Below, in pieces: positions 29,705-48,811 of a stretch of 64,000 bases of DNA. Under the pieces are notes generated by a model that saw nothing but the letters and a program-made list of their open reading frames with translations, was not told where the DNA came from and ran no database searches. Position 1 is the stretch's first letter. Each line of letters starts with the position of its first letter. Source of the stretch: Verrucomicrobiota bacterium (GTDB taxonomy: Bacteria > Verrucomicrobiota > Verrucomicrobiia > Opitutales > Opitutaceae); the NCBI GenBank assembly GCA_016222805.1, contig JACRQG010000018.1, forward strand, positions 1 to 64,000, given 5' to 3'. A program made the position numbers and the translations under genes.

Positions 29705-32704
29705 ATGCACCACCGTTTACCTGCTGCGTTCCTCTGCTCCCTGCTCGGCGCCGTCCTCGCCGCCCTGGCCGCCACCGGTTACGCGGCCACCGTCACCGTC
29801 ACGGTCAGCAGCGCGGACTCGGCCCAGCTGCTCCAGCAGGCCCGGGTTGAGCTGGCTCCTTCCGGCCGGGAGGCGATGACCGACAACCTCGGCACCGCGG
29901 TCTTCCTCGACGTCGCCCCCGGCGACTACACCGCCCGCATCACCTACCTTGGCTTCGCGGACCAATCCGTGACCGTCCGGGTGACGGACCGGCCGCGCGT
30001 CGACGTCAGTGTCCCGCTGAAGACCGAAGCCGCCGTGCAGCTCGACGCCTTCGTCGTCACTTCCGAGCGCGAGGGCAACGCCGCCGCCCTGACCCGCCAA
30101 AAGAATGCCGCCAGCGTGCGCAACGTCATCGCGATGGATGCGCTCGGCGTGCTGGCCAACGACAACCCCGCCGAGTTGCTGAACCGCCTGCCGGGAATCT
30201 ACTCCCTGCCCTCCGACGAGGGCAACCTGGACCGGCCCACCATCCGCGGCCTTCCCGCCACCATGAACGTGACCACGATCGACGGCGGCACGGTGGTCTC
30301 GCAGCTCGCGATGAGCCGCAGCCCGATCTACACCAACATGACGGCGACCAACTTCGAGGAGATCGAGGTCACCAAGTCGCTCACCCCCAATCTCCCCGCC
30401 GATTCGATCAGCGGCCGGGTCAACTTCAAGACCAAGAGCACGCTCAACCTGAAGGGAAAGCGCGAGCTGACCTTCCGGTTCGGCGGCAAGTGGTCGCCGA
30501 CCTTCTTCGAGCTCACCCCGCGCCGCACCACCCCGCAGGTGCAGCCCAACCTCTCGGTCAGCTACCGCGAGGCGTTTGGAATCTTCGGTGAAGCGCGCAA
30601 CCTCGGACTCAGCGCCAACTTCGTCTACAACGACAACATCACCCAGCGCATGCGCACGCTGTCGACCCTCGACACCGTCGAGCGGCTGCCGCGCTTCACC
30701 CACAGCTACTCGCGCACCGACGGCGTACAGGACCGCATCCTCTACACCGGCAACGTCCGGACCGACTTCCGCCTCGGTCCCGACTCCCGGCTCTTCTTCA
30801 GCGCGATGCGGAGTTTCCAGGAGCAGGCGACCAAGCGCCCGCAGAACTACCAGGTCGCGTACAACGCGAATGTCGCCACCGCCGGCCGCTCCTTCGCCAC
30901 CGGAGTCAACGCCGACGGCACCCCTTCCGGCGGAGGCAACATCCGTCCCGGCTCGACCGTGCTCCGTACCGAGGTCCTGCGCTCGACCCGCACCTCCTTC
31001 CAGGCCGCCACCAATCCGTTTGAAGCCGATGACATGACCGACTACCAGCAGTTCGGCGGCGAGCATCGCTTCGGCCCGTGGCGGCTCGACTACACGCTCA
31101 GCAACTCGCGCAGCGAGCGCAACACCGGCGCCTACCGCCAGCACTCGGTGCGCCGCAACTGGACGGCCAGCGTCACCAACGTCGGCTGGATCCTCGACAA
31201 GACCGCGAGCGAGGAATTCCCCACGTTTACCCAGACCTCCGGCCCGAGCATCCTCGACCCCCGCAATTATGCCAGTGGCAGCGTTTCCCAGACGTCGGCC
31301 GTGTCCGTCAACCGCGCCACCAGCGCCGAACTCAACCTCAAGCGGGAGGTGGAGGTGGTTGGCCAGCGGATCCTGCTGGCCACCGGCAGCCTCGCCACCA
31401 GCCAGTCCTCGGTGCAGGACTCCGGCTCCCGCACCTCCACCTACGTCGGCCCCGACGGTGTCGCCGGCGTCAATCCGGTCACGCGGGTCAACGACGACGA
31501 CCTCTCCCGTTTCGCCTCCTTTCCGCCCCTGATGCCGCGGCTGGGGCTCGGCCCCGTGCCGACCTTCGACCCCGGGAAGTACAGCTACTCGCTCGATCAC
31601 GAACCGGCCCAGTGGCGCGTCGATCCGTATCAGGTCGAGTCCGCCCGGCGCGCCGGCCAGTCGGCCGTCCGCGAGCGCATCCTCGCCGCCTACGCCATGG
31701 GTACCGCGCGGGTCGGCCGGCTCGGGGTTGTCACCGGCGTGCGCTGGGAGGAGTCGCGCACCCGCTCCAGCGGCTTCCTCAAGCGCGCCACCCTGCCTGC
31801 CATCACGGACCCGGTCGCCCGGACCGACGCGGAATACGGCAAGGAGCCGGTCGTCCGCCGTGGGCGGACCAGCGACTTCTTCCCGAGCCTGCACTTCCGC
31901 TATGCCTTCACCCCGAACCTCGTCGGCCGGGCCAGCTGGTCGACCAGCATCGGTCGCCAGGCCCTCGGCGATCTCGTGCCCGCCTTCTCCGCCTCCGACC
32001 TCGAGCAGACCGTCACCCTCGACAATCCGTCGCTCAAGCCGCAGTTCGCGGACAGTTACGATCTTTCGCTGGAATACTACCTCAAGCCGGTCGGGCAGCT
32101 GATGGTCACGCTGTTCCGGAAGGATCTCACCGACTTTGTCTTTCGGCAGGAGATGGGGGTCGTCGCGGCCGGGCCGGACAACGGCTTCGGCGGCCAGTAT
32201 GCCGGCTACGACATCATCTCCAACGGCAACGGCGGCCGCGGACGGGTCGACGGCATCGAGTTTTCCTACCTCCAGCAACTCACCTTCCTGCCCGGGGCGC
32301 TGCGCGGCTTGTCCGTCCTGCTCAATTACACGCACCTGTCCGCCACCGGTGACTACGGCCAGGGCAGCGGCGGCACCACCGGCCTGGTCGGCTTCGTACC
32401 CGATACCGCCAACGCCCGGATCGGCTACAAGTACCAGTGGTTCGCCCCGTATGTGCAATGGACCTACACCGGGCGCAGCCTCGGCAACTTCGCGACCGAC
32501 CCGCAGCTGCAGTCCCACCGGCTGGAGCGGCGCATCGTGAACGTCGGCTTCTCCGTCCGCCTGCCGCGCAACCTCGAGTTCTTCTTTGATGCGGCCAACC
32601 TCTTCGACGAGCCCCAGCGCACGACGCACTACGTGAGCGGCAACCGGATGAGCACCTATTACAACGGCCCGTTCGTGAGCTTCGGGATCAGCGGGCGGTA
32701 CTGA
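29705..32704 (+). CDS. TonB-dependent outer-membrane receptor
   Basis: A 999-residue receptor for energised uptake of large or scarce ligands. Signal peptide about residues 1-27. A carboxypeptidase-regulatory-like domain follows (about 28-115), then AFVVTSERE, a linker seen in Opitutaceae receptors. The plug (about 140-260) contains ELLNRLPGIYSL and RPTIRGLPATMN. A long beta-barrel ends in SFGISGRY, with the C-terminal aromatic needed for insertion. No SusD-like partner is present, which is normal for this phylum. The ligand is unknown; the next gene is an FG-GAP protein 101 bp downstream that may act with it. Confidence 0.95.
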   Translation: MHHRLPAAFLCSLLGAVLAALAATGYAATVTVTVSSADSAQLLQQARVELAPSGREAMTDNLGTAVFLDVAPGDYTARITYLGFADQSVTVRVTDRPRVDVSVPLKTEAAVQLDAFVVTSEREGNAAALTRQKNAASVRNVIAMDALGVLANDNPAELLNRLPGIYSLPSDEGNLDRPTIRGLPATMNVTTIDGGTVVSQLAMSRSPIYTNMTATNFEEIEVTKSLTPNLPADSISGRVNFKTKSTLNLKGKRELTFRFGGKWSPTFFELTPRRTTPQVQPNLSVSYREAFGIFGEARNLGLSANFVYNDNITQRMRTLSTLDTVERLPRFTHSYSRTDGVQDRILYTGNVRTDFRLGPDSRLFFSAMRSFQEQATKRPQNYQVAYNANVATAGRSFATGVNADGTPSGGGNIRPGSTVLRTEVLRSTRTSFQAATNPFEADDMTDYQQFGGEHRFGPWRLDYTLSNSRSERNTGAYRQHSVRRNWTASVTNVGWILDKTASEEFPTFTQTSGPSILDPRNYASGSVSQTSAVSVNRATSAELNLKREVEVVGQRILLATGSLATSQSSVQDSGSRTSTYVGPDGVAGVNPVTRVNDDDLSRFASFPPLMPRLGLGPVPTFDPGKYSYSLDHEPAQWRVDPYQVESARRAGQSAVRERILAAYAMGTARVGRLGVVTGVRWEESRTRSSGFLKRATLPAITDPVARTDAEYGKEPVVRRGRTSDFFPSLHFRYAFTPNLVGRASWSTSIGRQALGDLVPAFSASDLEQTVTLDNPSLKPQFADSYDLSLEYYLKPVGQLMVTLFRKDLTDFVFRQEMGVVAAGPDNGFGGQYAGYDIISNGNGGRGRVDGIEFSYLQQLTFLPGALRGLSVLLNYTHLSATGDYGQGSGGTTGLVGFVPDTANARIGYKYQWFAPYVQWTYTGRSLGNFATDPQLQSHRLERRIVNVGFSVRLPRNLEFFFDAANLFDEPQRTTHYVSGNRMSTYYNGPFVSFGISGRY

Positions 32705-32773
32705 GTAGGCGGCGACGACGCTGGAAGCGGGTCCGCGATTCCAGGATCGCGGGGCGGAGTCGCCCCGCCTACA
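32703..32773. repeat. palindromic repeat, two-armed copy (family A, locus 7)
   Basis: It starts with GTAGGCGGCGACGACGC immediately after the receptor stop and ends with the perfect hairpin GCGGGGCG-GAGT-CGCCCCGC (32749-32768) and CTACA (32769-32773). Confidence 0.75.
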
Positions 32774-34980: not shown

Positions 34981-35150
34981 CCCCTCTCGAGCCGGAACGA
35001 TGCAGTCGAAGTCGACGTGCACCGCAGCAATGTAGGCGCGACGACCTCGTCGCGGAGCGGGGCGCGGTCGCCCCGCCCACAGGCCACCGTTTCGTCAGTG
35101 GACTCCCGCAGGTGCGTCAGCCCGACTGCATGGTTCCGGCTCGAGAGGGG
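34981..35150 (+). mobile_element. 170-bp MITE-like element, copy 1
   Basis: Terminal inverted repeats of 28 bp (left end CCCCTCTCGAGCCGGAACGA, right end its complement) match at 27 of 28 positions. The centre is a palindromic-repeat core: TGTAG (35031-35035), hairpin CGCGACGA-CC-TCGTCGCG (35037-35054), hairpin GCGGGGCG-CGGT-CGCCCCGC (35057-35076), then CCACA. A second copy of the same length lies inverted at 60941-61110 (about 86% identical by hand count, no gaps). It encodes nothing; a target duplication is not evident. Confidence 0.8.
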
Positions 35151-35447: not shown

Positions 35448-37034
35448 CTACCCCAGCATTCGCCGCAATGCCGGGTAGTCGATCTTCGCGTTGTGCCGAC
35501 GATCCACCGGGATCGCGCGAACCATCCGCACTTCGTCGAGGTGAGCCCAGACCAGCGCGGCGCGCAGCGAATCGAGGCACTCCGTCGGCGCTTCGACCAC
35601 CAGCAACCGCCGGTCGCGGTGCGCGATGGCCGCCGCCCGACGCACCCCAGAAATCTCCATCGCCACACATTCGACCGCGAACGGGTAGAGCCGTCCCCGC
35701 GCGTCGTCGATCCTGGCCGCGCACCGGCCCAGCAGCCACAACCGTCCCCGGTCGTCGATTCGTCCCGCATCTCCGGTGCGATGCCAGACCCTGCCATCGA
35801 CCCGGAACTTCGTTTCCTCGTCGCCCACGCCGCCCAGATAGCCTGGCAGCACATGTTCCCCCGCCACCACGATCTCCCCGACCTCCCCGGTGGGCAACGT
35901 CTCCGCCGCGAACTCCGCCGCGCCGAGGGCACCTCGCGGCGTTCCCCAGCGATCCCGCACAATCCGGAGATCGATCGCCTCCACCGGCTGGCCCGCCAGC
36001 AGCCCCCCGCCGGATCGCATGGCCGCCAAGTCGTCTTCCGTGATTTCCTCCGCGGCGAGATGCGCGATGGGTTCCGCCTCGGTGGATCCATAAACGGCCA
36101 CCACTTCCGCCTGGGGCGCCACCGCACGCAGATCCGCCAGGACTCGGGGAAACACCGGCGCTCCGCCCGTGTGCACGTGCCTCAGGGTTGTCAGGACCGC
36201 GCCCCCCGCCCGCGCCGCCGCCACGAGGCGCTCGAAGAACGCCGGCGAGGCCGCAATCCGGTTCACCCGATGCCGCCCAATCTCCTCCATCACCTGCGCC
36301 CCGTCCACCGCGCCCGGGCGCCGCAGCTCCGTCGCGGAAAGGACCGTCGTCACCCCGGAGGCCAAGTTCGCCAGCGTGAAGATTGGCAGCGTGCCCAAAT
36401 CCACGTCACCCGCGGCCAGCCCAATCGCCGGCGCCAGCACGCGATGCTGCGCCACCAGGAATCCATGTGTGCGCACTGCCGCCTTTGGTCCACCGGTGCT
36501 GCCGCTCGTGAAGGTCACAAGTGCCGGGTCCTCCGGCCGGACATCCCCCCTCGCCGGGAGCGAAGCGGGGTGACGCGCCGGCGCTCCCGGCCGCCGGCTC
36601 CAACCCGGCCAGCAACGCGTGTTCGGCCACCAGCCCGAAGGGATCAACTTCAACGGGATCCTTTGGAGCGCGGGGCAGACCAGCCGCAACAGGTGCGCGC
36701 GCCGCGTCGCCAGCAGGGCGCGCGGAGGCCAGCGCTGGCAGCACTGTTCCAAGTGGCGCCGGCCCGCCGAGGGATCGAGAAACAGCGCCACCACGCCGAG
36801 CCGAAACATCGCCAGCAACGACACGTAGAGATCCACGGACATCGGCACGAAGACCAGCACGGCATCCCCGCGGTGCAGCCCCCACGCCGCCAGTTCCGCC
36901 GCCGCCCGTTCGACCTCCCGCTCCAGTTCGCCAAACGTCAGTCGTCGGCCTCCCGTCGGCCGCGCCTCGACCAGCGCCAGGGTGTCCGGTCGTGCCCGCG
37001 CCTGCCCGCTCAGGATCTCGGCGATGGTCGTCAT
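35448..37034 (-). CDS. AMP-forming acyl ligase (acyl-CoA synthetase / OleC-like superfamily)
   Basis: Adenylate-forming enzyme (528 residues) that activates a carboxylic acid with ATP. Landmarks: phosphate loop TFTSGSTGGPKAA, YGSTEAEP, RTGDAGRIDDRGRL, and the C-terminal Lys in HNAKIDYP. The sequence around GGAPVFPRVLADLRAV is reminiscent of OleC-type ligases, but no OleA, B or D is here. The stretch at about residues 133-155 is unusually Trp/Arg/Pro-rich (see rejected items). ATG 37034 gives the normal N-terminus; the longer frame overlaps the acyltransferase gene. It is last in the seven-gene cluster, 107 bp behind the previous gene with a hairpin between. Confidence 0.9.
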   Translation of the reverse strand: MTTIAEILSGQARARPDTLALVEARPTGGRRLTFGELEREVERAAAELAAWGLHRGDAVLVFVPMSVDLYVSLLAMFRLGVVALFLDPSAGRRHLEQCCQRWPPRALLATRRAHLLRLVCPALQRIPLKLIPSGWWPNTRCWPGWSRRPGAPARHPASLPARGDVRPEDPALVTFTSGSTGGPKAAVRTHGFLVAQHRVLAPAIGLAAGDVDLGTLPIFTLANLASGVTTVLSATELRRPGAVDGAQVMEEIGRHRVNRIAASPAFFERLVAAARAGGAVLTTLRHVHTGGAPVFPRVLADLRAVAPQAEVVAVYGSTEAEPIAHLAAEEITEDDLAAMRSGGGLLAGQPVEAIDLRIVRDRWGTPRGALGAAEFAAETLPTGEVGEIVVAGEHVLPGYLGGVGDEETKFRVDGRVWHRTGDAGRIDDRGRLWLLGRCAARIDDARGRLYPFAVECVAMEISGVRRAAAIAHRDRRLLVVEAPTECLDSLRAALVWAHLDEVRMVRAIPVDRRHNAKIDYPALRRMLG

Positions 37035-37078
37035 GGCCCCGCTTTCAGCGCCCGCCCCCGCACCGTTCGAACCTGAGG

Positions 37079-37098
37079 GCGGGACAACCCCGTCCCGC
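37079..37098. repeat. palindromic repeat within the cluster (family A, locus 9)
   Basis: The perfect hairpin GCGGGAC-AACCCC-GTCCCGC lies between the acyltransferase and ligase genes. Both arms differ from the family consensus by a complementary pair of changes, so the stem is kept. Confidence 0.7.
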
Positions 37099-37141
37099 GC
37101 CTTGAACACCGCCCACCCTCGCAGTCGCGTTCCATGGACGT

Positions 37142-38059
37142 TCACGCCGCGCGCAGCGAACGCGCCAACAGCGTGTACCGCCGGATCGTCACCGCGTAAT
37201 GGGCACTCAGGTTGCGCGACTGGTTGGACTCGTGCATCAGCGCGTGAATCGCCCGACGAAAGCCGAGGGTGTGGCCCGCGGCATGCACCCGATCCACGAG
37301 CAGCGCCCCCAGCCCGGCGTAGGAGCGCCCGGGCAGCACGGCGAGGGTCTTGAGAATCAGGGTTGTCACCGGCTCGCCGCGCTGCGCCTGCGCCCAGTCC
37401 GGCACCGCAAACACGTAGCCGACCGGGCGCCCGGCCTGCTCGGCCAGCAACACCAGTTCCGGCCGGACCCGCGCCTGCACTGCGCGGTATTGCTGGAGGA
37501 ATTCTTCCCGCGCGAGCGGGGTGTACAGGAAGTTGCCCTGAAACGACACCACGGAGACATCGTAGATCTTCCCCAATTCGTCCTCGAATCGCGTCGGATC
37601 CAGCGACCGCACCGTCACGCCCGCCGCCGTCATCCGCGCCGCAACGCCCGCCACCCGGGTATCGCGCGTCGTGAGGTCCGGTGTGGCCGACGAGTAGAAC
37701 TCCGCCAGCGGCGCAAATCCGGCGCCGCGCCACCACTCCGGCCACACCGCCGGGTTTGGCGGCTCCAGGAAAAACGGCGGCTCTGTGCCGGCGTCGGTCA
37801 CAAACCGATAGCGCCGCCACGTATTCCCGTCCATCGGCCCGACCGCCAGCGTGCATCCCTCCGCCCGCAGCCGCGCGGCCGCCTGCCCGAGGGTGTCGTG
37901 GGTCGCCGGCTCTGTCGTCGCCTGAAAGCCGCCGATCACGCCCAGTCGCTCGCCCGCCAACGCGGGCACCTGGCGCCACCACAGGAGCGCCTCCCCGCTG
38001 CCGGACGCGCCCCCCGCGGTCACCCGGCCATCCGCTCCCATCGGTAGATCGCCACTCAT
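37142..38059 (-). CDS. GNAT-family N-acyltransferase
   Basis: A 305-residue acyltransferase candidate. The C-terminal part has the GNAT acyl-CoA fold: RPVGYVFAVPDW (strand 4), LILKTLAVLPGRSYAGLGALL (acyl-CoA-binding region, with a relaxed R/Q-x-x-G-x-G/A loop), and MHESNQSRNLSAHY (helix 4 region). The N-terminal part is an additional alpha/beta region. The ATG overlaps the stop of the kinase-like gene by four bases (ATGA), so translation is coupled. Within the cluster it could acylate the amino group introduced by the DUF3419 enzyme (inference). Confidence 0.8.
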   Translation of the reverse strand: MSGDLPMGADGRVTAGGASGSGEALLWWRQVPALAGERLGVIGGFQATTEPATHDTLGQAAARLRAEGCTLAVGPMDGNTWRRYRFVTDAGTEPPFFLEPPNPAVWPEWWRGAGFAPLAEFYSSATPDLTTRDTRVAGVAARMTAAGVTVRSLDPTRFEDELGKIYDVSVVSFQGNFLYTPLAREEFLQQYRAVQARVRPELVLLAEQAGRPVGYVFAVPDWAQAQRGEPVTTLILKTLAVLPGRSYAGLGALLVDRVHAAGHTLGFRRAIHALMHESNQSRNLSAHYAVTIRRYTLLARSLRAA

Positions 38060-39384
38060 GGCCGCATCAAAGCGAGTCCCGCGAGTGAGGCGAGCACCGC
38101 GGTGACTCCCTGCCGCCACCAACGGGCGTACAGATCCTCGGGTTCCGCCAGGTTTCGATCCCAGACCATAAAGCCGGCCAGGGCCACTCCGACCACCACG
38201 GCGCCGCTCGCCCACGACCAGCCGGAGAGTGCGTCCACGCCGTTGACCGCGAGGAACAGCAGCCCTTGCACGCCTACCGCCTGCACCAGCGCGACGGCCC
38301 ACCATGCTCCCGGCCACCACCGGGGTCGCCCCTGCGAGAATCGCACCACCGCGATAATAGCCTGGTGGGTGGCGATGCCCAGGGTGTAGGGCCAGAGCCA
38401 ACCGGCTCCGGGCAGCCAGGCATTCGCCACCGCCCAACCGATGCCGGCGGATCCGAGGCAGAGGACTGCCCCGAGATAGTGCCGATCCGGCCCCCCAGGC
38501 ACCGTCGGCATCAGCCGCGTGTAGCTCGCCCGGAGAACCACCGGGGCCACCAGCCAACGCCAGTCGCCCAGCGACCAGAAGAGGTACAGCATCAAACCCG
38601 CGCCGAGCCGCGCGCTCGAGTCGAGCAGCCGCTTGCGCCAGCCCAGCATGAAGGCGACCAGGACACCCATCACCAGCGCGCGTCCCACGAGATCCGGCCA
38701 GGTGAGTTGCGGGTAGAAACGCATCTGCCCCACGGCCACGATCGGGACGAGCAGGTTGTCCAGGCCGCGCCAGGACACCGCCTCCACCAGCGCCGCAAAC
38801 CCGCCCATGATGAGGCCGATCACCACCCTCTCGGGCCACGGCACCGGGGTCCACACTCCCACGATGATCATCACCGCGACCCAGGTGACGCCAAATACCG
38901 CCGCCGAACCTTCCAGCGACTTCAGGCTTTCCACCGCCCGATAGCGGGTCTTTCCCCAGCGCCGGCCCACCAGCGCCCCGGCCGCGTCAGCGTAGGCGAG
39001 GATCGCCACCGGGGCGGCGAAGACGGCCACCTCCCCCCGGGCCAGGGTAAAGGCGAGGGCCACCGCCACCGGGAAATACACCTCGCCCAGCGAGGTCCGC
39101 TCGACGCTGCCGAGCACGCCGCCCATCGCCGCCTGCAGGGCGCCGACGTGCCGCACCGCCAGCATCAGCGCCACCGCCACACCCGCCAGCACCCACACCG
39201 GGCCGGGCGTCCGGAAAATCGCGGGAAAGCCCAGACACACCGTGCCCATGCCCATGTGCACGAGCTTCCGGGCCAACTCCGGGCCCACTGCGCCGCGCTG
39301 TTGCAACGCCCGCACGCCAAGCATCAGCGCCGCCAGCAGGCCCAAGACCAGAACGATTCCCAGAATCGGGCTCATCGCAGTCAC
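38056..39384 (-). CDS. phytol/dolichol kinase-like membrane protein with extra C-terminal membrane half
   Basis: Integral membrane protein of 442 residues. The N-terminal half (about 1-220) matches the SEC59/DGK1/VTE5 family of CTP-dependent lipid-alcohol kinases: RKLVHMGMG near the start, then YADAAGALVGRRWGKTRY and KSLEGSAAVFG. The C-terminal half adds about seven membrane helices with no recognisable motif, doubling the usual length of about 220. If active it would phosphorylate an isoprenoid or diacylglycerol alcohol in the membrane. It overlaps both neighbours by four bases, so it belongs firmly to the operon. Confidence 0.82.
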   Translation of the reverse strand: MTAMSPILGIVLVLGLLAALMLGVRALQQRGAVGPELARKLVHMGMGTVCLGFPAIFRTPGPVWVLAGVAVALMLAVRHVGALQAAMGGVLGSVERTSLGEVYFPVAVALAFTLARGEVAVFAAPVAILAYADAAGALVGRRWGKTRYRAVESLKSLEGSAAVFGVTWVAVMIIVGVWTPVPWPERVVIGLIMGGFAALVEAVSWRGLDNLLVPIVAVGQMRFYPQLTWPDLVGRALVMGVLVAFMLGWRKRLLDSSARLGAGLMLYLFWSLGDWRWLVAPVVLRASYTRLMPTVPGGPDRHYLGAVLCLGSAGIGWAVANAWLPGAGWLWPYTLGIATHQAIIAVVRFSQGRPRWWPGAWWAVALVQAVGVQGLLFLAVNGVDALSGWSWASGAVVVGVALAGFMVWDRNLAEPEDLYARWWRQGVTAVLASLAGLALMRP

Positions 39385-40484
39385 ACCACTTCCTCCACCA
39401 CCAGGGCGCTGTAGAAAAACGCCTTGTCCCGGGCGAAGAGCGGCCCCGCCAGGTCCTCGCGCGGTCGGAGCCGGGCCGCGAGGGCCTCCGGCCGACGGCG
39501 CGGGGCAAGCATGTTCCAGTAGGCCAGGCGCCCGCCCGGCCGGCTCGCCGCCGCCAGCCGCTCCAGGAGGGCCGCGGTGTTCTCCGGCGACATGTATTCG
39601 AAAATGTCGCTGAGGTTGAACTTATCGATCCGGGCACCCGCCGAACCCGCCCGCCCCAGATAGGCCTCCAGCGTGAGTTCGTGCCACTCCAGCCGACCCA
39701 GCCGCGCTCGGATCCGCTCGAAGTTCTCCGCACGCAGGGCCCAGGGAAGCGCCTCTCCGTGCGTGCCGGTCAGGATCCAGTGCAGGTAGGGATTCTCGGC
39801 GGGATTCAACTCCGTCAGCGCGTGTCGCGTTCGCCCGAGGATCCGCTCCGCCACGGAGCCTTCGACGTACTTGAAGAAAGCCGGATCACGCCCCAGCCGA
39901 CCCATCACGAAGCGGGAGAAGAAGACGCGAAACAACAACCGCCAGCGCCACGTATCCCATTGGCCGCGGTAAAACGCCTCCCGCGCCGCCCGGTCGCCGC
40001 CGCGGAGCAGGGCCGCCACGGTCGATCGCCGGTGCACCAGCGGCAACACGCGCGAACGGAAGAGCCGAAAGTAGTCCTCAAACTTCCCCGCTCCGCCCAC
40101 GCCCGCGGCGATGCACACCGGCCTCGCATCCCAGAAATCGCGGACCGCGGGAGCCAGCATCGGCCGGCATCGCCGGTACAGCTCCACACGGCGATCGCTC
40201 GGCCGCGAACCCAGCAGTTCCAGCAAACCCTCATGCGACAGCTCGCGATACGCCGCCACCCGCAACGCCAGGCAGGCTAGTTGCGCAGGGTTGAGGTCCA
40301 ACGCCACCACCCGCGCGGCCCCCGCTCCCAGCAGCGCCAGCGCGTTGTCCCCGGCCGAGGCGATCGACACCACGGTGTCCTCTGGCCTGACGTCGAGCGC
40401 AGCCAGGAGCACATCCGCATCCTCCCAGACCTGCGCGTACCGGATGCGCGAAAAGTCTGCTCGCTGCGCCGCTTCCGTGCTCAT
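39381..40484 (-). CDS. DUF3419 / BtaA-like S-adenosylmethionine-dependent aminocarboxypropyltransferase
   Basis: A 367-residue member of the BtaA family, which moves the 3-amino-3-carboxypropyl group of S-adenosylmethionine onto diacylglycerol to begin betaine-lipid synthesis. Diagnostic words: RYAQVWEDADVLL at the start, the SAM-binding loop IASAGDNALALL with VALDLNP, and FNLSDIFEYMSP near the end. There is no BtaB methyltransferase in the window, so the product is probably not a standard betaine lipid. It overlaps the kinase-like gene by four bases; the gap to the upstream gene (40485-40596) contains a palindromic repeat. Confidence 0.88.
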   Translation of the reverse strand: MSTEAAQRADFSRIRYAQVWEDADVLLAALDVRPEDTVVSIASAGDNALALLGAGAARVVALDLNPAQLACLALRVAAYRELSHEGLLELLGSRPSDRRVELYRRCRPMLAPAVRDFWDARPVCIAAGVGGAGKFEDYFRLFRSRVLPLVHRRSTVAALLRGGDRAAREAFYRGQWDTWRWRLLFRVFFSRFVMGRLGRDPAFFKYVEGSVAERILGRTRHALTELNPAENPYLHWILTGTHGEALPWALRAENFERIRARLGRLEWHELTLEAYLGRAGSAGARIDKFNLSDIFEYMSPENTAALLERLAAASRPGGRLAYWNMLAPRRRPEALAARLRPREDLAGPLFARDKAFFYSALVVEEVV

Positions 40485-40504
40485 GGTGAAACCGCCACCC
40501 CCCC

Positions 40505-40560
40505 TGTAGGCGGGGCGACCCCGCCCCGCGATGGCCGTCGGGGTCGCCGCCCCCGGCTAC
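40505..40560. repeat. palindromic repeat, double hairpin A+B (locus 10)
   Basis: TGTAG (40505-40509), perfect hairpin GCGGGGC-GACCCC-GCCCCGC (40510-40529), then an imperfect second stem closing with CCCCGGCTAC (40551-40560). It sits between the DUF3419 and PEP-synthase-like genes of the cluster, so it would be transcribed within the operon. Confidence 0.8.
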
Positions 40561-40596
40561 CAAGCTCTCCCCGCGGCCTTTGACCGGCCATTTGCC

Positions 40597-43179
40597 TCAC
40601 GTTGAGCCCTCCTTCACACCCTGCCCCTCCACCTTGCGCACCACTCCCGTCGCTCCGTCCATCTCCAACCACTCCCCGGTCTTCACCCAGGCGGTCACGC
40701 CACCGGCCGCCACGATCGCCGGGATTCCCATTTCGCGGGCGACGATCGCCGAGTGGGACAGCAGGCTGCCGTGCTCCACCACCAAGCCGGCCGCCGAGGG
40801 AAACAGCATGATCCATCCCGGGTCGGTCCGGGGTGCCACCAGGATCTCCCCGGACTCGATCACGGCGTGGCGCGGATCGGTGATCACTCGCGCCCGGGCC
40901 CGCACCACACCCGGGCAGCACCCGAGCCCGCGCAGCGAATCTCCCTCCGGCGGGACCGCGGGCCGGGTGGCGAGAAACGCGTTGCCGAGGTGCACGGCGC
41001 CGCGCGTCGAGAAGCGGTCCGCCGGAGCCGGCCGCGTGCGGTGGGCCGCAAACTCCCGCTGCCGCAGCGCGACCAGCGCGATCAGATCGGTCGTCACGGT
41101 CGTGCCCTCCATGAAGCCCAGGACCTCCTCGACCGTCAGGAAGAAGATGTCGCGCGGATCGTGCAGCCGGCCGGTGGCGTGCAGGCGCTTTCCAATCTCG
41201 AGGTGAATGCGCCGCACCCGCCCAAACAGGCGCGTGCGTTCGAACCGCAGATTCTCCCGATCCCGCACTCGGGCCCGGGCATGGCGCAACACCCAGCCGA
41301 AGACGATCCGGCCACCGACCCTTCCGCGCAGCACCCCCGCCACCCGCGCCTCCGCCGCCGCCCGCAGTTTCGCCTCCGTGCCGGCCTCCGCCGCCAGGCC
41401 CGCGGCGCCAAAACGACACGCGTACTGCCCGACCGAGCGCAAGAGGGTCAGCGGCTCGTCGTGCAGGGTGAGGCTTTCCAGTTTCAACTCCTCCAGACAG
41501 CGGTCGCCAAATTTCTCCAGGTAGGCTCCATAGCGCGCCCGGAAATCGGCGCGGGTCGCCAGCCAGGCGTCGATCGCCCGACGGCTCCCGGAGCAGAGCG
41601 TCTCCACCGCTGCGGCATCCCCGGCCACGAGGGCCGCCAGTTCGCGCACGCGCTTGGCCGGCTCCGCGCTGATCATGCCGCCTTCCGCGCACAGGAGATC
41701 GTTCTGCAGTGTGCCGTCGGCGTCGTCACACCACCGCGCCGTGAGTCGGCGCAGCACCCCGTAGAAAATCATCGCGAAGAAGTCGTTCACCAGCGGCGCG
41801 TCCCAGCGCAACAGCAGCTGCCGCTCGAGATCGCGGTAATGGGCCGCGAGTTCGTCCGGTCGCATCTCCTCCAGGGCGGTCCCGCCCGGGCGCAGCGCGT
41901 GGCTCAACCGCGCGTAAAACCGGTCAATCTGCCCCGGCAGGGTGAGGTGATTGCGCAGGAGGCCGGCGAGCGAACCGGCCAGGGCGACCCCGTCGCGCAA
42001 CCGCGCCCACCCGTTGGCGCGAGGCAGTCGCGCCTCCACCTCCGGGGGCAGTCCCTCCTTCACGCCCATCATCTGCTCCATGAAGCCGCGGTTCACCGCA
42101 AACCCCGGGAGCAACGCCAGCAGCCGATACCAGCTCGCGAGATTATAGTAGATGCGCCCCCCGACGAGTCCGAGCATGCGCGGAAACAGATCCCGATTCT
42201 CCTCGATCCGCGCCGCCGACACCCCCATCAGGCGCGCGAACTCGCGGTAGACCGCCTCGTAGATCCCGCGGGCAAACGAGAAGGTGAGCGGGGTCGTCAC
42301 CCCGCTGTAGCTTTCCGCGATGTTTGCGTTGTCCCACAGGTTCAGCTCGCCGTCCGGATCCGCCACCTGGGCGAGCGAGGTGATCGGCCGCGACTGCAGC
42401 AGCCAGACCTTTCCGCCGGCCACCGCCCACTCGATATCCTGGGGCCGGCCGAAATGCCGCTCCGTGGCCCGGGCCAGGCGCGCCACCTCCGCGGCCAGCT
42501 CGTCCGTCAGTACGGGGGCGTCCGCCAGGTCGGCCGGCACGGGCGTCGCCCCCAAGCCTTCCGTGGAGCCGGGAGCCGCGCGGTGCGCGACAGTCTTGCG
42601 CGCGATCGCGCGCGCCACCACCGCGCCGCGGCGATCGACGGTGTAAGTATCGGCGTCCGCCTCCCCCGAAACCAGCGCCGTGCCCAGGCCAAACACTGCC
42701 GACACCACCGCGTGGCCGCGCCGGCCGCTCACCGGATCCGCGCTGAACGCCACGCCCGCCGCTTCGGCGTCGATCATCCGCTGCACGAGCACCGCCGGGG
42801 GCTGCGTCGGCGGGCCGAGACCGCGTTCCCGGCGGTAGGCGAGAATGCGATCGCTCGCGCCCGATCGCCGCACCGCCTCCACCTTGGCCGCGAGATCCGC
42901 GAGCGGCACGAACAGGAAACTGTCGAGCTGGCCGGCGAACGAATGCTCCCCTCCGTCCTCCTCGACCGCCGAGGATCGCACCGCAAAGTGCGTCGCGCCC
43001 GGGGCCACTTCCCGCGCGCAGTCGGCGAGGCGCGCGTCGACGGCCATCTCCGGCGGCACCACCAGCCACTCCGGCACCGGGAGACCTGTGCCCGTCAGCC
43101 GCGCGAGCGCGCCGGCCTTGCCGCCCAGCACCGCCCCGGGGGGCAGGTCGTCGTTGTGGCGCAGGTAGGTGTTCATCAT
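40597..43179 (-). CDS. PEP-synthase/rifampicin-phosphotransferase-like dikinase
   Basis: An 860-residue protein with the layout of PEP synthase relatives: an N-terminal ATP-grasp part (about 1-280: GGKAGALARLTGTGLPVPEW, FAVRSSAVEEDG, VLVQRMIDAEAAGVAFSADP), a long helical middle domain (about 300-730), and the C-terminal swivelling phosphohistidine domain with GSLLSHSAIVARE, His809 being the phospho-carrier. There is no C-terminal PEP/pyruvate barrel, so it resembles the phosphotransferases that use ATP to phosphorylate other molecules (as rifampicin phosphotransferase does). In the cluster it may phosphorylate a lipid or isoprenoid intermediate (inference). Confidence 0.88.
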   Translation of the reverse strand: MMNTYLRHNDDLPPGAVLGGKAGALARLTGTGLPVPEWLVVPPEMAVDARLADCAREVAPGATHFAVRSSAVEEDGGEHSFAGQLDSFLFVPLADLAAKVEAVRRSGASDRILAYRRERGLGPPTQPPAVLVQRMIDAEAAGVAFSADPVSGRRGHAVVSAVFGLGTALVSGEADADTYTVDRRGAVVARAIARKTVAHRAAPGSTEGLGATPVPADLADAPVLTDELAAEVARLARATERHFGRPQDIEWAVAGGKVWLLQSRPITSLAQVADPDGELNLWDNANIAESYSGVTTPLTFSFARGIYEAVYREFARLMGVSAARIEENRDLFPRMLGLVGGRIYYNLASWYRLLALLPGFAVNRGFMEQMMGVKEGLPPEVEARLPRANGWARLRDGVALAGSLAGLLRNHLTLPGQIDRFYARLSHALRPGGTALEEMRPDELAAHYRDLERQLLLRWDAPLVNDFFAMIFYGVLRRLTARWCDDADGTLQNDLLCAEGGMISAEPAKRVRELAALVAGDAAAVETLCSGSRRAIDAWLATRADFRARYGAYLEKFGDRCLEELKLESLTLHDEPLTLLRSVGQYACRFGAAGLAAEAGTEAKLRAAAEARVAGVLRGRVGGRIVFGWVLRHARARVRDRENLRFERTRLFGRVRRIHLEIGKRLHATGRLHDPRDIFFLTVEEVLGFMEGTTVTTDLIALVALRQREFAAHRTRPAPADRFSTRGAVHLGNAFLATRPAVPPEGDSLRGLGCCPGVVRARARVITDPRHAVIESGEILVAPRTDPGWIMLFPSAAGLVVEHGSLLSHSAIVAREMGIPAIVAAGGVTAWVKTGEWLEMDGATGVVRKVEGQGVKEGST

Positions 43180-43279
43180 CGCCTTCTACCCTGCCATGCG
43201 TCGGATGCGATTGGGCCCGATCGCCCTTCCGAGCCCACGCCCATCCGCCGCTCGCTGGCATTTTCCCCGGGTCATGACC

Positions 43280-44185
43280 TCAACGCGGCCGCAGCAGCAA
43301 CGGCACGACTCCGAGCATCAGATACAAGGCGAGGGTCCATCCGCCCGAGTAGGCCTCGATCGCCTTGCCCAGCCGGCCCCGCGCCGTCCGCACAAACGTC
43401 CACCCCAGCGCGTGCGCGCCGAGCCACAGCAGCCCGAGCACCGCGGCCACGGGAACGAGAAACCCGATGCGCCCGGCCGCCTCCAGCGCACAACCCAGGG
43501 TCGCCGCCTGCGCCGCCAGCCAGGATCCCACCGCGACCGGACGTCCCCAGAGGAAGGTGTAGGTTTCCACTCCCTTCTCCTCCTGCTCCGGCGCGCGAAT
43601 TTTGCGGCCGATTTCGAGCACGACGCCGTTGCAGAAACTCGCGGCGAGGAACCAGAACAACCCCTCCGGCATGCCTCCGCCCGCCCGCACCCAGTCGCAG
43701 CCGGTCGCAAACCAGTCGATCAGCGGCATGATCATCATGTGGCTGAAAAGGTAGACCACCGGCCGGGCCTTCAGCCACGTGCGCGCGAAGAACTCGACAC
43801 TCATCAGCGCAAAATAGGTCCAGGTCACCGCCAGCAACCCGACCAGCGGCCAGCCGATCGGCAGCGCCAGGGCGAGCTGCACCACGGCGATCGCGCCACC
43901 CAGCCGGCCCAGTTCCCGCAGCGTCACCAGCCCACGGGGCACCGGCCGGTAGGGACGATAGCGCGCATCCTCCTCGGCATCCTTGAACTCATCCGCGATT
44001 CGCAGCAGCGCGAAGGAGCCGAGCGAGACGCCGAACGCCACGGCCAGCGATGCCGCCGCCGGTCGCGCCCCGTCCCCGCGCAGCAGGGCCGAGTAACTCA
44101 CCGCCGACGCGCTGAACGCCGCGATCAGCGGGCCGTGCGCGGCGAGCGGAAAACGCTCCCGCTGGTAGATCCACCAGCGGTTCAT
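43280..44185 (-). CDS. UbiA-superfamily prenyltransferase-like membrane protein
   Basis: A 301-residue membrane protein with about eight helices. The first Asp-rich motif, ADEFKDAEEDARYRPYRPVP, matches the N/D-D-x-x-D-x-x-x-D-RPxRP pattern that binds prenyl diphosphate through magnesium. The second expected Asp motif is altered to GRKIRAPEQEEKGVETY, with Lys/Arg/Glu in place of Asp. It should condense an isoprenoid chain with an acceptor, or have drifted from that role. Its ATG overlaps the HMG-CoA reductase stop by four bases. The 100-bp gap before the PEP-synthase-like gene shows nothing. Confidence 0.87.
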   Translation of the reverse strand: MNRWWIYQRERFPLAAHGPLIAAFSASAVSYSALLRGDGARPAAASLAVAFGVSLGSFALLRIADEFKDAEEDARYRPYRPVPRGLVTLRELGRLGGAIAVVQLALALPIGWPLVGLLAVTWTYFALMSVEFFARTWLKARPVVYLFSHMMIMPLIDWFATGCDWVRAGGGMPEGLFWFLAASFCNGVVLEIGRKIRAPEQEEKGVETYTFLWGRPVAVGSWLAAQAATLGCALEAAGRIGFLVPVAAVLGLLWLGAHALGWTFVRTARGRLGKAIEAYSGGWTLALYLMLGVVPLLLRPR

Positions 44186-45486
44186 GCGGGTCCCGGATCC
44201 CCGCCGGACGCGGGTTTGCGCCCGCGTGCGAGCCGCTCGTGGGCCTGCGCAAACTGGTGCGCGCTGAGTGCCGCGATGATCGAAATCTCCCCGGCCAGCG
44301 CCAAGCCCCCGCAGATCTCGGCCAGCGCCCGTGCATGTTCCGGTCCCGCCAGCCCCATGATCTCCAGACAGGCCCGCTGGCTCGGCAGTCCCGTGCCGCC
44401 GCCCACCGTGCCGACGATCAGGTTGGGCAGCGTCACCGCCGTGTAGAGGGCATCCGCCGCCCGATCGATCTCGAACCGCGTCACCCCCACCGCGGCCTCC
44501 GACACGCACGCCGCATCCTGCCCGCACGCGATGAAGAGCGCGGCGAGCCCGTTGGCATAATGGCCCTGCACGCCGATCGTGCCGCTCATCACCCCGCCGA
44601 GTGCCGACATCCGCCAGTAGTCGATCATCTTCTCCGGCGTCGTGTGCAGGTGGCGCTCGACAATCTTCCGCGGCAGCCGCACCTCCGCGCTGACCTTCTT
44701 CCCGCGCACACTGACAAACGACTGCGCGCTCGCCTTCTTGTCCCCCGAGAGGTTGCCCTCGACGAAGAAGTACTTCGGCTGGATGGGACAGTGCGCGGCG
44801 ATGTGATCGCAGACGGCCTGGGTGGCGATGGTGACCATGTTCTGCCCCGCCGCGTCCCCGGTCGTGTAGTCGAGCAGCAGGTAGACGTGGTTGCCCTCGA
44901 CGGTGAAACGCAGGTCGCGCAACCGGCCATGGCGCGTGGTGGCCTCCGCCGCGGCGCGCAGGGCTTCGAAGTGCTGCAGGCACCAGATGACGAAGTTCCC
45001 GACCTCCAGCAGCGTCGCAAACGCGTAGGCCGGGGCGCGGCAGACGCCCTCGTTGAGAATCGCCGTCGTGCAGCCGCCCGCGAGCGTGATGACGCTGGCT
45101 CCCCGATGGTAGCTCGCCACCAGCGCCGCCTCCGTCGTGGCCAGCGGCAGATAAAAATCGCCCTGCGCGGCGAGGCCGTTCACGCGCAGGGGCCCGGCGA
45201 GGCCGACCGGCAGTTTCACCGTGCCGATGAAGTTCTCGATGTTGCGCGCGTAGGCCTCGTGCCGGCCCAGCGACACGGGATCGGCCACCTCCGGCCGCCC
45301 GGCGGCGGCGTGCGGGAGCAGCGCCCAGCGTTTGTCGACGATGGCGGGATCCGTCTGCGTGGCGCCCGGCACACGCGGAGGCGAATCATGGGTCTTGGGG
45401 GCGAGCCGACGGGCAATCTCCTCCGGAGTCAGGCTGCCGATGATGCTCTGCAGATGCTCGCGGGTGCCCTGGTGGGTGGCGGACAT
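44182..45486 (-). CDS. HMG-CoA reductase
   Basis: Reduces HMG-CoA to mevalonate with NAD(P)H. The catalytic set is complete: Glu119 (ATTEAAL), Lys250 (GNLSGDKK), Asp211 (TTGDAAGQNM) and His416 (QAHERLARGR); ENFIGTVKLPVGLAGPL and VGTVGGGTGLPSQ are also present. The DAAGQNM version of the dimer motif and the 434-residue length mark a bacterial branch distinct from the Pseudomonas class II enzyme. No other mevalonate-pathway gene lies in the window, which makes its use as a dedicated first step of this cluster interesting. The frame is open to 45663 through a repeat, but ATG 45486 gives the natural start. It is the first gene of the cluster. Confidence 0.94.
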   Translation of the reverse strand: MSATHQGTREHLQSIIGSLTPEEIARRLAPKTHDSPPRVPGATQTDPAIVDKRWALLPHAAAGRPEVADPVSLGRHEAYARNIENFIGTVKLPVGLAGPLRVNGLAAQGDFYLPLATTEAALVASYHRGASVITLAGGCTTAILNEGVCRAPAYAFATLLEVGNFVIWCLQHFEALRAAAEATTRHGRLRDLRFTVEGNHVYLLLDYTTGDAAGQNMVTIATQAVCDHIAAHCPIQPKYFFVEGNLSGDKKASAQSFVSVRGKKVSAEVRLPRKIVERHLHTTPEKMIDYWRMSALGGVMSGTIGVQGHYANGLAALFIACGQDAACVSEAAVGVTRFEIDRAADALYTAVTLPNLIVGTVGGGTGLPSQRACLEIMGLAGPEHARALAEICGGLALAGEISIIAALSAHQFAQAHERLARGRKPASGGDPGPA

Positions 45487-45559: not shown

Positions 45560-45636
45560 TGTAGGCGGGACGACCACGTCCCGCGCCATCCGGCCAGGGT
45601 CTCCATTACGGCGGGGCGAGGTCGCCCCACCCACAG
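45560..45636. repeat. palindromic repeat, complete two-armed copy (family A, locus 11)
   Basis: TGTAG (45560-45564), hairpin GCGGGAC-GACCAC-GTCCCGC (45565-45584), a 26-base spacer, hairpin GCGGGGCG-AGGT-CGCCCCAC (45611-45630), then CCACA. It fills the centre of the 311-bp divergent gap between the cluster and the next sulfatase; the flanks should hold promoters but none is clear. Confidence 0.8.
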
Positions 45637-45797: not shown

Positions 45798-47303
45798 ATG
45801 AAACGGTTTCTCGTCTGCCTCACCCTCGCGATCGTCCTGCGGGCGGCGTTCGCCGGCACCACCCCGCCGCCCCGCCCGGACCTGCTCTTGATCATGCCGG
45901 ACCAAATGCGCGGCGACTGCCTCTCGGCCGTCGGCCATCCCCAGGTCCGCACGCCGACCCTCGATGCTCTCGCCGCCCAAGGCACGCTGTTCCGGCGCGC
46001 CTACTCGACTGTGCCCTCGTGCATCCCGGCGCGCTTCGCGCTGCTGACGGGCCGCCAGGCGCAGTCGAGCGGTGTCGTGGGTTACGCGATGCGACGCGTC
46101 ACCGAACCCACCCTGCCGGCCACCCTGGCCGCGGCCGGCTACGCGACCGTCCTCGTGGGTCGCACCATGCACCAGTCGGCCGACAGCGGCGACCTCGGTT
46201 ACGCCCGCCAGTTGCTGGGATCAACCTACGTGGCGGATGACGACTACGATCAGGAGCTAAAACGCGCGCTCCCCGACAGCGGCGGCATCCGGGGCATCGT
46301 CGCCACCCTGCGGCTCGACAACAACCGCTGGCCGGCCGCTCCCTGGCCGCATCCCGAGGAACTTCACCCCACCGCGTGGATCGTCCGTCGCTCGCGCGAG
46401 ATCATCACCACCACCCCGACCGAACGCCCGTTGTTTCTCACCGCGTCGTTCTACGCGCCCCATCCGCCCCTCTTTCCGCCGCGCCGGCTGTACGAAAAGC
46501 ACCTCGGCTCGGCGCTTCCGCCCGTCGCGATGGGTGCGTGGGTGGATCGCGGCCGGCTCCGGCCCGAGGGCGACAAGCAGGGCGCCCGCGTGCTGCTCGA
46601 AGGTGACACCCTGCGCCGCGCCCAGGCCGGGTATTTCGGGTTGATCGAACACATCGATGAGCAGATCGCCGGCTTGATCGCCGACTTTCGCACCCGCAGC
46701 GAACGGGCCGGCCGGCCCTGGGTGATTCTCGTCACCACGGATCACGGCGAAATGCTCGGCGACCATGGGTACTTCCGGAAGTGCGAGCCCTATGAGGGAT
46801 CGGGGAACATCCCCTTCATCGTCGCGGCCGACGCGGCGCTCGGCCTGAGGCGTGGACTGCAGTCGCTCGCGCCGGTCGGCCTCGAGGATGTCATGCCCAC
46901 CCTGCTCGATCTTGCCGGCGTGCCGCGGCCCGCAACGGTCGACGGCCTCAGCCTCGTGCCGGTGCTGCGCGGCCAGGCCACGCGCGTGCGCGACTGGCTC
47001 CATTTCGAGCACGCGCCGACCTACAGCGAGGAGCAGGGGTTTCACGCCCTGGCCGACGGCCGCTATAAGTACATTTGGCGGCCCAAGTCCGGTCGCGAAC
47101 AACTCTTCGATCTCGCCCAAGACCCGCATGAACTCGTCGACCTGGCCTCCCAACCCGGCCAGGCCGACTTGCTCGCTCCATGGCGCCAGCGCCTCACCTC
47201 TCGCCTCGCCGGTCGACCCGAAGGTTTCTCCGACGGAGAAAAACTGATCCCCGGCCGTCCGTACCCGCGCCTGCACCCAGCCCCCAAAACGATCCGACCA
47301 TGA
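45798..47303 (+). CDS. sulfatase (S1 family), exported
   Basis: A 501-residue formylglycine sulfatase. Signal peptide about residues 1-19. Asp35 (LLIMPDQMRGD; only one acidic residue where most have two) and the maturation motif SCIPARFALLTGR (Cys75) are seen; Ala in place of Ser/Thr is tolerated in the family. TTDHGEMLGDHG is the second metal-binding region. The motif variant and PDQMRGD point to a branch different from the other sulfatases here. The next sulfatase gene overlaps its end by four bases. Confidence 0.93.
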   Translation: MKRFLVCLTLAIVLRAAFAGTTPPPRPDLLLIMPDQMRGDCLSAVGHPQVRTPTLDALAAQGTLFRRAYSTVPSCIPARFALLTGRQAQSSGVVGYAMRRVTEPTLPATLAAAGYATVLVGRTMHQSADSGDLGYARQLLGSTYVADDDYDQELKRALPDSGGIRGIVATLRLDNNRWPAAPWPHPEELHPTAWIVRRSREIITTTPTERPLFLTASFYAPHPPLFPPRRLYEKHLGSALPPVAMGAWVDRGRLRPEGDKQGARVLLEGDTLRRAQAGYFGLIEHIDEQIAGLIADFRTRSERAGRPWVILVTTDHGEMLGDHGYFRKCEPYEGSGNIPFIVAADAALGLRRGLQSLAPVGLEDVMPTLLDLAGVPRPATVDGLSLVPVLRGQATRVRDWLHFEHAPTYSEEQGFHALADGRYKYIWRPKSGREQLFDLAQDPHELVDLASQPGQADLLAPWRQRLTSRLAGRPEGFSDGEKLIPGRPYPRLHPAPKTIRP

Positions 47304-48709
47304 CCACGCCCTCCCCCACCCGGTCTTCGCCCCCGCGCCTGGTGAACCTCATCCGACGCGCCCTTCTCGCCGTCTTCCTCCCGGCCGTGCTCCCGCCCGG
47401 CTACTCCGCCGCTCCAGGCCAACCCAATCTCCTCCTCATCGTCTCCGACGACCACGGCTACGCCGATGCCGGCTTCCAGGGCGCCAAGGATCTGCGCACG
47501 CCCCACCTCGATCGCCTGGCCGCCAGCGGGGTCCGTTTCACCAACGGCTACGTCTCGCACCCGTTCTGCAGCCCCACCCGCGCCGGACTCATGACCGGGC
47601 GCTACCAGCAGCGCTTCGGTCACGAGCGCAACCCGTTCTACGATCCCAACGACGCCCGCGAGGGGCTGCCGCTGACCGAGAAGCTGCTGCCCGCACACCT
47701 GCAATCCGCCGGCTACCTCACGGGCTGGGTCGGCAAGTGGCACCTCGGCGCCGCCCCCGCCCTCCGCCCCGAACGCCGCGGGTTTGCCGAAACCTACGGC
47801 TTCATCGGCGGCGGCCACCGTTTCCGCGAATGGCAGGAGAACGTCGCGGTCGAATACAACGTGCCGATCGAGCGGAATGGTCAGCGCGAACCCGCCCCCG
47901 AGCACCTCACGCCTGCCTTTGGCCGCGAGGCCGGGGCCTTCATCCGGCGGCACCCTGCTCAGCCCTGGTTCCTTTACCTCGCCTTCAACGCCCCGCACAC
48001 GCCCCACGAGCCCACCCCCGAACGGCTCGCGCGCTTCTCCGCCATCAAGGATCCGGTGCGCCAGAAATACGCCGCCCAGCTCAGCCTCATGGACGACGCC
48101 ATCGGCGAAGCCCTCGCCACGCTGCGTGACACCGGCCAGGAACGACGCACCTTGATCTTCTTCTTCAGCGACAACGGCGGTCCCGTCTCGGTCAACGGCT
48201 CCGACAACACACCTCTCCGCGGGGCGAAGGGCTCCGTCTACGAAGGCGGCGTGCGGGTGCCGTTTCTCGTCGCCTGGCCCGGCCGGATTGAGGGCGGGCG
48301 CACGGACCACCGGATGGTGAGTTCACTCGATGTGTTCGCCACTGCGCTCGCGATGGCCGACGTGCCGATGCCAACGGACCGGAAATACGACGGCGTCAAC
48401 CTCGTGCCCTACCTCACCGGCGAGAAGGTCGGCCAGCCCCACGAGCGGCTCTTCTGGCGCAATGCCAACCTGCTGGCTGTCCGCGACGGCCACTGGAAAC
48501 TCGTGCGCGGCGCGGGAAAGTCCGATGAGCTGTACGACCTGGAGAAGGATGTCGGCGAAAAGAACGATGTCGCGTGGGCCAATCCGGCGGTGACCACGCG
48601 CCTGGCCGCCGCCCTCGAAGCCTGGAACAAGGAGCTGATCGATCCCGTCTTCCAGGGCACCGCCGGCCGGGCCGGCAATGCCAAGAAGGCGAAACAGAAA
48701 AAGAAGTAG
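47300..48709 (+). CDS. sulfatase (S1 family), exported
   Basis: A 469-residue formylglycine sulfatase with export segment ALLAVFLPAVLPPGYSAA, Asp50-Asp51 (IVSDDHGYAD), CSPTR (Cys90), VGKWHLG and FFSDNGG. It ends in a Lys-rich tail (KKAKQKKK) like the sulfatase at 24167-25639. ATG 47300 overlaps the previous stop (ATGA), so the two are translationally coupled and probably act on linked or successive sulfate groups (inference). Confidence 0.94.
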   Translation: MTTPSPTRSSPPRLVNLIRRALLAVFLPAVLPPGYSAAPGQPNLLLIVSDDHGYADAGFQGAKDLRTPHLDRLAASGVRFTNGYVSHPFCSPTRAGLMTGRYQQRFGHERNPFYDPNDAREGLPLTEKLLPAHLQSAGYLTGWVGKWHLGAAPALRPERRGFAETYGFIGGGHRFREWQENVAVEYNVPIERNGQREPAPEHLTPAFGREAGAFIRRHPAQPWFLYLAFNAPHTPHEPTPERLARFSAIKDPVRQKYAAQLSLMDDAIGEALATLRDTGQERRTLIFFFSDNGGPVSVNGSDNTPLRGAKGSVYEGGVRVPFLVAWPGRIEGGRTDHRMVSSLDVFATALAMADVPMPTDRKYDGVNLVPYLTGEKVGQPHERLFWRNANLLAVRDGHWKLVRGAGKSDELYDLEKDVGEKNDVAWANPAVTTRLAAALEAWNKELIDPVFQGTAGRAGNAKKAKQKKK

Positions 48710-48811
48710 TCGCGGACCCGGCGCCGGCGGCGGCCCAGAACAGACTGGATCGGTCATTCTCGCCGGGCGCGTCGAGCCAGGCCGATCGCACTACGCGACC
48801 AATCCCGATCG

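Follow-up and report, generated by a model that had tools for sequence, protein, structure and literature searches.

What does a bacterium make with seven adjacent genes whose products belong to known enzyme families, in a combination that we did not find described? The question is raised by the first 64,000 nucleotides of contig JACRQG010000018.1 (the window; coordinates are given on its forward strand), from a Verrucomicrobiota bacterium with a genome of 7.9 Mb. A first-pass annotation of the window placed there a run of seven genes, headed by a homologue of 3-hydroxy-3-methylglutaryl-CoA reductase (HMGR), and knew of no pathway with this content; likewise, no description of the gene set was found in the open-licence PMC literature. 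We consider it rather probable that the seven genes form a biosynthetic cluster for an undescribed, non-isoprenoid fatty-alcohol lipid with a 3-amino-3-carboxypropyl head (homoserine-ether type). The open reading frame (ORF) listing and translations show all seven frames on the minus strand between 35448 and 45486, transcribed from 45486 towards 35448 in the following order (FcrA is an acyl-CoA-reducing HMGR homologue, discussed below):

44182..45486, minus strand: HMGR homologue, FcrA-type, predicted long-chain acyl-CoA reductase (Pfam HMG-CoA_red 6.9e-113; residue marks)
43280..44185, minus strand: UbiA-superfamily transferase (Pfam UbiA 1.2e-12; conserved motifs)
40597..43179, minus strand: phosphoenolpyruvate (PEP) synthase/rifampin-phosphotransferase-like enzyme, here PEPS, with ATP-grasp and swivelling phospho-His domains (PPDK_N 4.2e-55, PEP-utilizers 5e-24)
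39381..40484, minus strand: divergent DUF3419 (BtaA-like) protein, predicted 3-amino-3-carboxypropyl transferase (Pfam DUF3419 1.3e-66)
38056..39384, minus strand: phytol/dolichol-kinase-like membrane protein, predicted CTP-dependent lipid-alcohol kinase (start GTG 39384 or ATG 39375)
37142..38059, minus strand: tandem-GNAT acyltransferase (Acetyltransf_1 at cut-off, 20.7 bits; fold model)
35448..37034, minus strand: AMP-forming acid ligase, FadD/OleC-like (Pfam AMP-binding 1.4e-53)

The earlier family calls were borne out by Pfam for five proteins, with GNAT just at the cut-off and the phytol-kinase-like protein without a Pfam match. Four-base ATGA overlaps, claimed for three junctions, were found at HMGR/UbiA (44182-44185) and kinase/GNAT (38056-38059); the DUF3419/kinase overlap reads GTGA (39381-39384) and exists only with the GTG start of the kinase gene. 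Gaps of 100 and 112 bp flank the PEPS gene, and 107 bp precede the ligase gene.

Conservation of the seven-gene set

Searching the GTDB species set with a profile built on the kinase-like protein gave 63 loci (L numbers), whose gene content was read by tblastn with the seven window proteins and whose taxon is the name carried in the sequence record. All seven genes are present in 34 of the 63 loci, and 30 of these, drawn from five phylum-level groups, match the window in order and strand, so the genes are indeed kept together elsewhere, as the first-pass annotation required. Three full sets (L032, L048 and L054) have the order GNAT-ligase-HMGR-UbiA-PEPS-DUF3419-kinase, and L058, also counted as full, has as its ligase only a weak ligase-like match, in front. 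Full sets come from Verrucomicrobia, Gamma- and Alphaproteobacteria, Acidobacteria, Planctomycetes/Phycisphaerae, Gemmatimonadaceae and Desulfobulbus; partial sets come from Cyanobacteria, Burkholderiales, Armatimonadota, Sumerlaeota, Salinivenus, Obscuribacterales, Bacteroidetes, Ktedonobacteria and Anaerolineae metagenome-assembled genomes. One cultured carrier, Roseinatronobacter sp. S2, has all seven in order on a plasmid (NZ_CP121116.1), where the HMGR gene spans the start of the record and was recognised as two pieces; the annotation of this copy consists of generic family names and two 'hypothetical proteins'.

The contig ends within 1.5 kb of the outermost match in 20 of the 29 incomplete loci, and nine have more room. 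Among the nine, GNAT and ligase were not seen downstream in L015 and L018, HMGR is missing from L030 and L035, and both HMGR and ligase from L047; L024 and L028 have kinase, GNAT and ligase only, L042 the kinase only, and L066 is a variant. Some contig-end loci are also short of genes on the retained side: L022 and L039 (no HMGR), L044 (kinase only), L023, with 3.3 kb upstream that lack PEPS, and L013, L019, L046, L049 and L065, where 3-10 kb downstream show neither GNAT nor ligase.

Within the host's class, 18 of 286 genomes gave any HMGR match, and in the host's family, as sampled, the host alone did so. Twelve of these 18, host counted, have a cluster-type HMGR, and in ten of the twelve the seven genes are adjacent; in genome G273 the set is split into two halves ~437 kb apart, and in G138 HMGR and UbiA-PEPS-DUF3419 were seen on separate contigs. 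Of 296 sampled genomes from the order to which Sphingomonas gei belongs, six gave an HMGR match and three hold the full set. For the seven genes, pairwise distances are correlated (0.79-0.94), at a level that none of 200 permutations reached for any pair; such correlation would also be expected from shared vertical descent. Together, the conserved order and content indicate that the seven genes are one functional unit, widely conserved. Two further matches were noted, a weak DUF3419 match in G110 and an unannotated match on a Rhizobium plasmid covering 22% of the query.

Residues of the HMGR homologue

Residues were read from an alignment to human and archaeal HMGR, in human numbering, for 47 cluster copies including that of the window. 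In HMGR, Ser684 and Lys735 line the HMG pocket and Lys691, Glu559, Asp767 and His866 are catalytic (PMC7503714). The four catalytic residues are kept in 47/47 cluster copies, while position 684 is Glu and position 862, Leu in human, is Phe in every copy. Column 735 holds Met in 33, Val in 11, Thr in two and Ile in one, never Lys; the column after it, where gap placement is ambiguous by one, holds Ser (36), Ala (9) or Thr (2), and a Lys stands one column before 735 in three copies.

Changed acyl specificity was first proposed from these residues, and the likeness to FcrA came after. FcrA is an HMGR homologue that reduces long-chain acyl-CoA to fatty alcohol and not HMG-CoA to mevalonate (Grossi et al. 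2025, PMC11948995). Its substitutions are Glu for Ser684, absence of the HMG-binding Lys and a bulky residue for Leu862 (PMC11948995), and all three are present in 47/47 cluster copies. The paper prints the lost lysine as Lys795, which we read as 735 because Gly411 of FcrA lies 44 residues past the Lys691 equivalent (PMC11948995).

Genome content points the same way. The suggested check of the host's isoprenoid route found, in the host genome, GcpE of the methylerythritol phosphate (MEP) pathway but no HMG-CoA synthase. Among eight further cluster genomes (completeness not given) GcpE was found in seven and HMG-CoA synthase in none, by a search that was positive in 4 of 14 control genomes. Since the FcrA substitutions recur in every copy and HMG-CoA synthase went undetected, the HMGR homologue most likely has no part in isoprenoid synthesis, contrary to the first-pass annotation; by its FcrA-type residue marks it appears to be a fatty acyl-CoA reductase. 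A Bacteroidetes locus, L066, has directly before PEPS an NAD_binding_4 protein ('male sterility', 5.2e-50), its genome giving no HMGR match; from its family, this protein may be a fatty acyl reductase.

Glu684 was dropped as a cluster-specific mark, being found also in six HMGRs of the class that lie outside the cluster and keep the Lys. Those proteins read DKHL or DKQL, with the Lys one column past 735 in the alignment. They form a second class-I HMGR group in the host's class (L077 and L079-L083), with Lys beside 735, Glu684 and Phe862; MMPL-like matches lie near the HMGR in L080-L083. DUF3419 follows the distinction: it is present in 11/11 other genomes of the class with a cluster-type HMGR vs 0/6 with an HMGR keeping Lys at or beside 735, no match being found in the genomes of L077 and L079-L083. 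Loss of Lys735 also occurs outside the cluster, in L084, L091 and L092, whose HMGRs have Trp862 like the published N. pharaonis FcrA; L084 shares one genome (Salinivenus) with the cluster variant L019. Neighbours of non-cluster HMGRs (seven proteins at L091, three at L092 and nine at L083) showed no related gene set.

The remaining enzymes, a proposed pathway and its rivals

The UbiA-type protein has both the Pfam match listed above and two acidic motifs, DExKDxxxD and ExGRK...ExxGVxtY, conserved over 55 sequences; the second is E-rich, unlike the classical DxxxD. PEPS has 5fbs, presumably a rifampin phosphotransferase, as its best solved relative (E 2.3e-61). It fits the rifampin phosphotransferase/PEP synthase family, with ATP-grasp and swivelling His domains, a His motif, LSHsAIV.RE, conserved over 56 sequences, and no match to the PEP-binding barrel. 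For the kinase-like protein, Pfam on 23 members gave a single, unrelated match and a Foldseek search with its model had no match under E 0.001; among its relatives the name phytol kinase occurs. The GNAT model (pLDDT, the predicted local distance difference test, 94.3) matched the tandem GNAT 7q3a in Foldseek (prob 1.00, TMq 0.59), giving the protein a predicted tandem GNAT fold. The ligase's best NCBIfam match is PRK09274.1, 'fatty acid CoA ligase family protein', at 373 bits, below its cut-off of 478. PHROGs searches with three cluster proteins gave no matches. Two 582-residue proteins, P0097 and P0107, match 59% and 56%, respectively, of the length of the kinase-like query and bear the JGI names dolichol kinase/YncA and YncA; with a GNAT domain in P0097, they suggest natural kinase-GNAT fusions.

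From these assignments we propose that the ligase would activate a long-chain fatty acid to acyl-CoA, which the FcrA-type HMGR homologue would reduce with NADPH to a fatty alcohol. The phytol-kinase-like membrane enzyme would phosphorylate a lipid alcohol with CTP; PEPS, using ATP, would add a further phosphate or activate the partner; and the UbiA-type protein would couple the activated chain to an acceptor. The DUF3419 enzyme may then transfer the aminocarboxypropyl head from S-adenosylmethionine (SAM), and the tandem GNAT may acylate the amine, so that the product is probably N-acylated. The first two steps and the head-group transfer draw on tested sequence marks and the acylation on the fold; the three steps between reduction and head transfer, the weakest, draw on family resemblance. 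Substrates, step order, acceptor and final structure are those we infer. In a bolder version, less likely than not, the product belongs to a new class of bacterial membrane lipid found in several phyla, a non-glycerol alkyl ether aminolipid whose backbone a UbiA-type enzyme would build from the fatty alcohol once the kinase has activated it, with an N-acylated 3-amino-3-carboxypropyl group as its cap; there the UbiA protein would handle a non-isoprenoid chain. The first-pass view of one functional unit making a lipid with an amino-acid-type head, possibly N-acylated, is probably right; for a 'prenylated' product the support left is the UbiA-type protein alone, and the earlier interpretation as a whole holds in part.

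Several observations weigh against the fatty-alcohol pathway. The usual donor for UbiA enzymes is an allylic diphosphate; none would arise from a saturated fatty alcohol, whose diphosphate would be a poor donor. The alcohol might be allylic (from a 2-enoyl acid), a prenyl group might be added to the alkyl part, or other chemistry might apply. Whole-genome searches of the L022, L030, L035, L039, L047 and L066 hosts (completeness not given) found no HMGR, and only L066 has a candidate replacement. GNAT and ligase were unseen in 3-10 kb downstream of the kinase in L013, L015, L018, L019, L046, L049 and L065; in several such loci an upstream location, as in L048 and L054, falls beyond the contig end, and L065 has another AMP-binding gene further along. 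The predicted kinase function draws on protein names, one motif and a fold match of middling quality. Support for the clade of cluster HMGRs is weak (0.565). N. pharaonis FcrA carries an additional N-terminal domain, and its residue 862 is Trp (PMC11948995); cluster copies have Phe862, and the window protein, at 434 residues, is about as long as archaeal HMGR (427).

Among other explanations, a route resembling phytol salvage is rather unlikely, though it accounts for two phosphorylating enzymes beside a UbiA-type protein. Here the ligase and HMGR homologue would turn an isoprenoid acid or a 2-enoic acid into an allylic alcohol, which the two phosphorylating enzymes would convert to the diphosphate; UbiA would move that chain to an acceptor, either a ring or glycerol, in the way that tocopherol is made, and DUF3419 and GNAT would decorate it. 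The phytol kinase name of the kinase relatives agrees with this, as do cyanobacterial hosts, which possess phytol: the cyanobacterial loci with downstream room, L015 and L047, show no ligase, and the L047 genome has no HMGR match. Yet the full set also occurs in groups not known, to our knowledge, to make phytol, PEPS presumably lies outside the family of the known phytyl-phosphate kinase, and FcrA was assayed on straight-chain acyl-CoA (PMC11948995).

A diffusible N-acylated homoserine-type signal or antibiotic, in place of a membrane lipid, is quite improbable: a SAM-derived aminocarboxypropyl group and an acyl-transferring GNAT resemble signal chemistry, and the patchy distribution and one plasmid copy would suit it, but a lipid is suggested by the membrane-integral kinase and UbiA proteins and, at some loci, by neighbouring MMPL and PAP2 genes. 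We give a very low probability to the first-pass proposal that HMGR supplies mevalonate for a prenyl chain or building block. Family name and retained catalytic residues favour it, and leucine breakdown could in principle give HMG-CoA without the synthase; against it stand the pocket (HMG salt-bridging Lys lost, Glu for Ser684, Phe for Leu862 in 47/47), HMG-CoA synthase in 0/9 genomes with the MEP marker in 8/9, and L066, where the NAD_binding_4 protein heads the set. The mevalonate pathway is rejected on the pocket residues and the undetected synthase. Virtually no weight is left for unrelated housekeeping genes that are neighbours by accident. The ~100-bp gaps at three junctions, two with repetitive extragenic palindromic (REP)-like sequences, would fit that reading, but it is refuted and chance excluded because identical order and strand recur in 30/63 loci from five phylum-level groups.

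Neighbouring sequences and known systems

The REP-like palindromes belong to a GC-rich family with eight window copies (at most two mismatches) vs 0.24 expected; one lies just upstream of the cluster (45564-45582).

37035..37141, minus strand: intergenic gap with REP-like palindrome 37078-37096, from sequence
40485..40596, minus strand: intergenic gap with REP-like palindrome 40509-40527, from sequence
173-191, 22336-22354, 32751-32769, 35035-35053, 35059-35077, 37078-37096, 40509-40527, 45564-45582: REP-like palindrome copies in the window

Three long plus-strand ORFs adjoin the cluster at 45798-50877, sulfatase-like by eye only, and a large ORF at 29705-32704 is, also by eye only, TonB-dependent-receptor-like.

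In other genomes, tblastn over 85 loci found mutually related P450/PAP2 genes near the cluster in eight (L007, L024, L025, L027, L028, L029, L065 and L072), with a short match also in L046. Pfam on neighbours gave PAP2_3 and P450 in L024, P450 with an adjoining sulfotransferase in L025 and PAP2 in L065. L066 has a phosphatidylserine-decarboxylase gene and an MMPL-like gene, and L019 has two MMPL genes inside the set. P450, PAP2, MMPL and phosphatidylserine decarboxylase genes fit an exported or tailored lipid. Seven groups of non-core ORFs are common to at least four loci; the largest, in eight loci, is the sole one annotated, so a conserved regulator may be among the others. PF03007, for wax-ester use of the fatty alcohol, was found in 0/20 genomes and also in 0/14 control genomes.

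Public genomes and metagenomes hold very many DUF3419 relatives, with 7055 of 7998 scored candidates passing E 0.001, whatever their gene context; should a lipid be the product of the set, one not yet assigned may be present in many environmental bacteria. Pathway maps can be led astray by an 'HMG-CoA reductase' annotation in bacteria, and, if the proposal is true, FcrA-type enzymes gain a context beyond wax esters. Cultured carriers exist (Roseinatronobacter sp. S2, Erythrobacter ramosus and Methylomonas sp. SURF-1), which makes the pathway directly testable.

Tocopherol phytol salvage consists of phytol kinase, phytyl-phosphate kinase and a UbiA-type phytyltransferase. The cluster resembles it in pairing a protein like a lipid-alcohol kinase with another phosphorylating enzyme and in having a UbiA-type protein, but its second phosphorylating enzyme is PEPS-like, it adds DUF3419 and GNAT steps and it has no aromatic-ring gene. 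With BtaA/BtaB it shares the DUF3419 family and a predicted SAM aminocarboxypropyl transfer, the role of BtaA (PMC10491745). However, the cluster protein is 24-26% identical to DUF3419 proteins adjoining a methyltransferase gene, it coexists with btaAB-like pairs in two genomes, and no BtaB is among the seven genes (the rest of the host genome was not searched for BtaB); the view that neither betaine-lipid nor mevalonate synthesis explains the set is upheld. FcrA agrees with the cluster HMGR in class-I homology, kept catalytic residues, the three substitutions and bacterial hosts without a mevalonate pathway, whereas the assayed enzyme has a carrier domain at its N-terminus and contributes to wax esters (PMC11948995); a term search of that paper's main text did not find this gene cluster. 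Elb/FarA bacterial ether lipids share with the cluster a ligase and a fatty acyl reductase that feed an ether-type lipid (PMC11948995), but in place of a PlsC/ElbD-type gene the cluster's seven include UbiA-type, PEPS-like and kinase-like enzymes.

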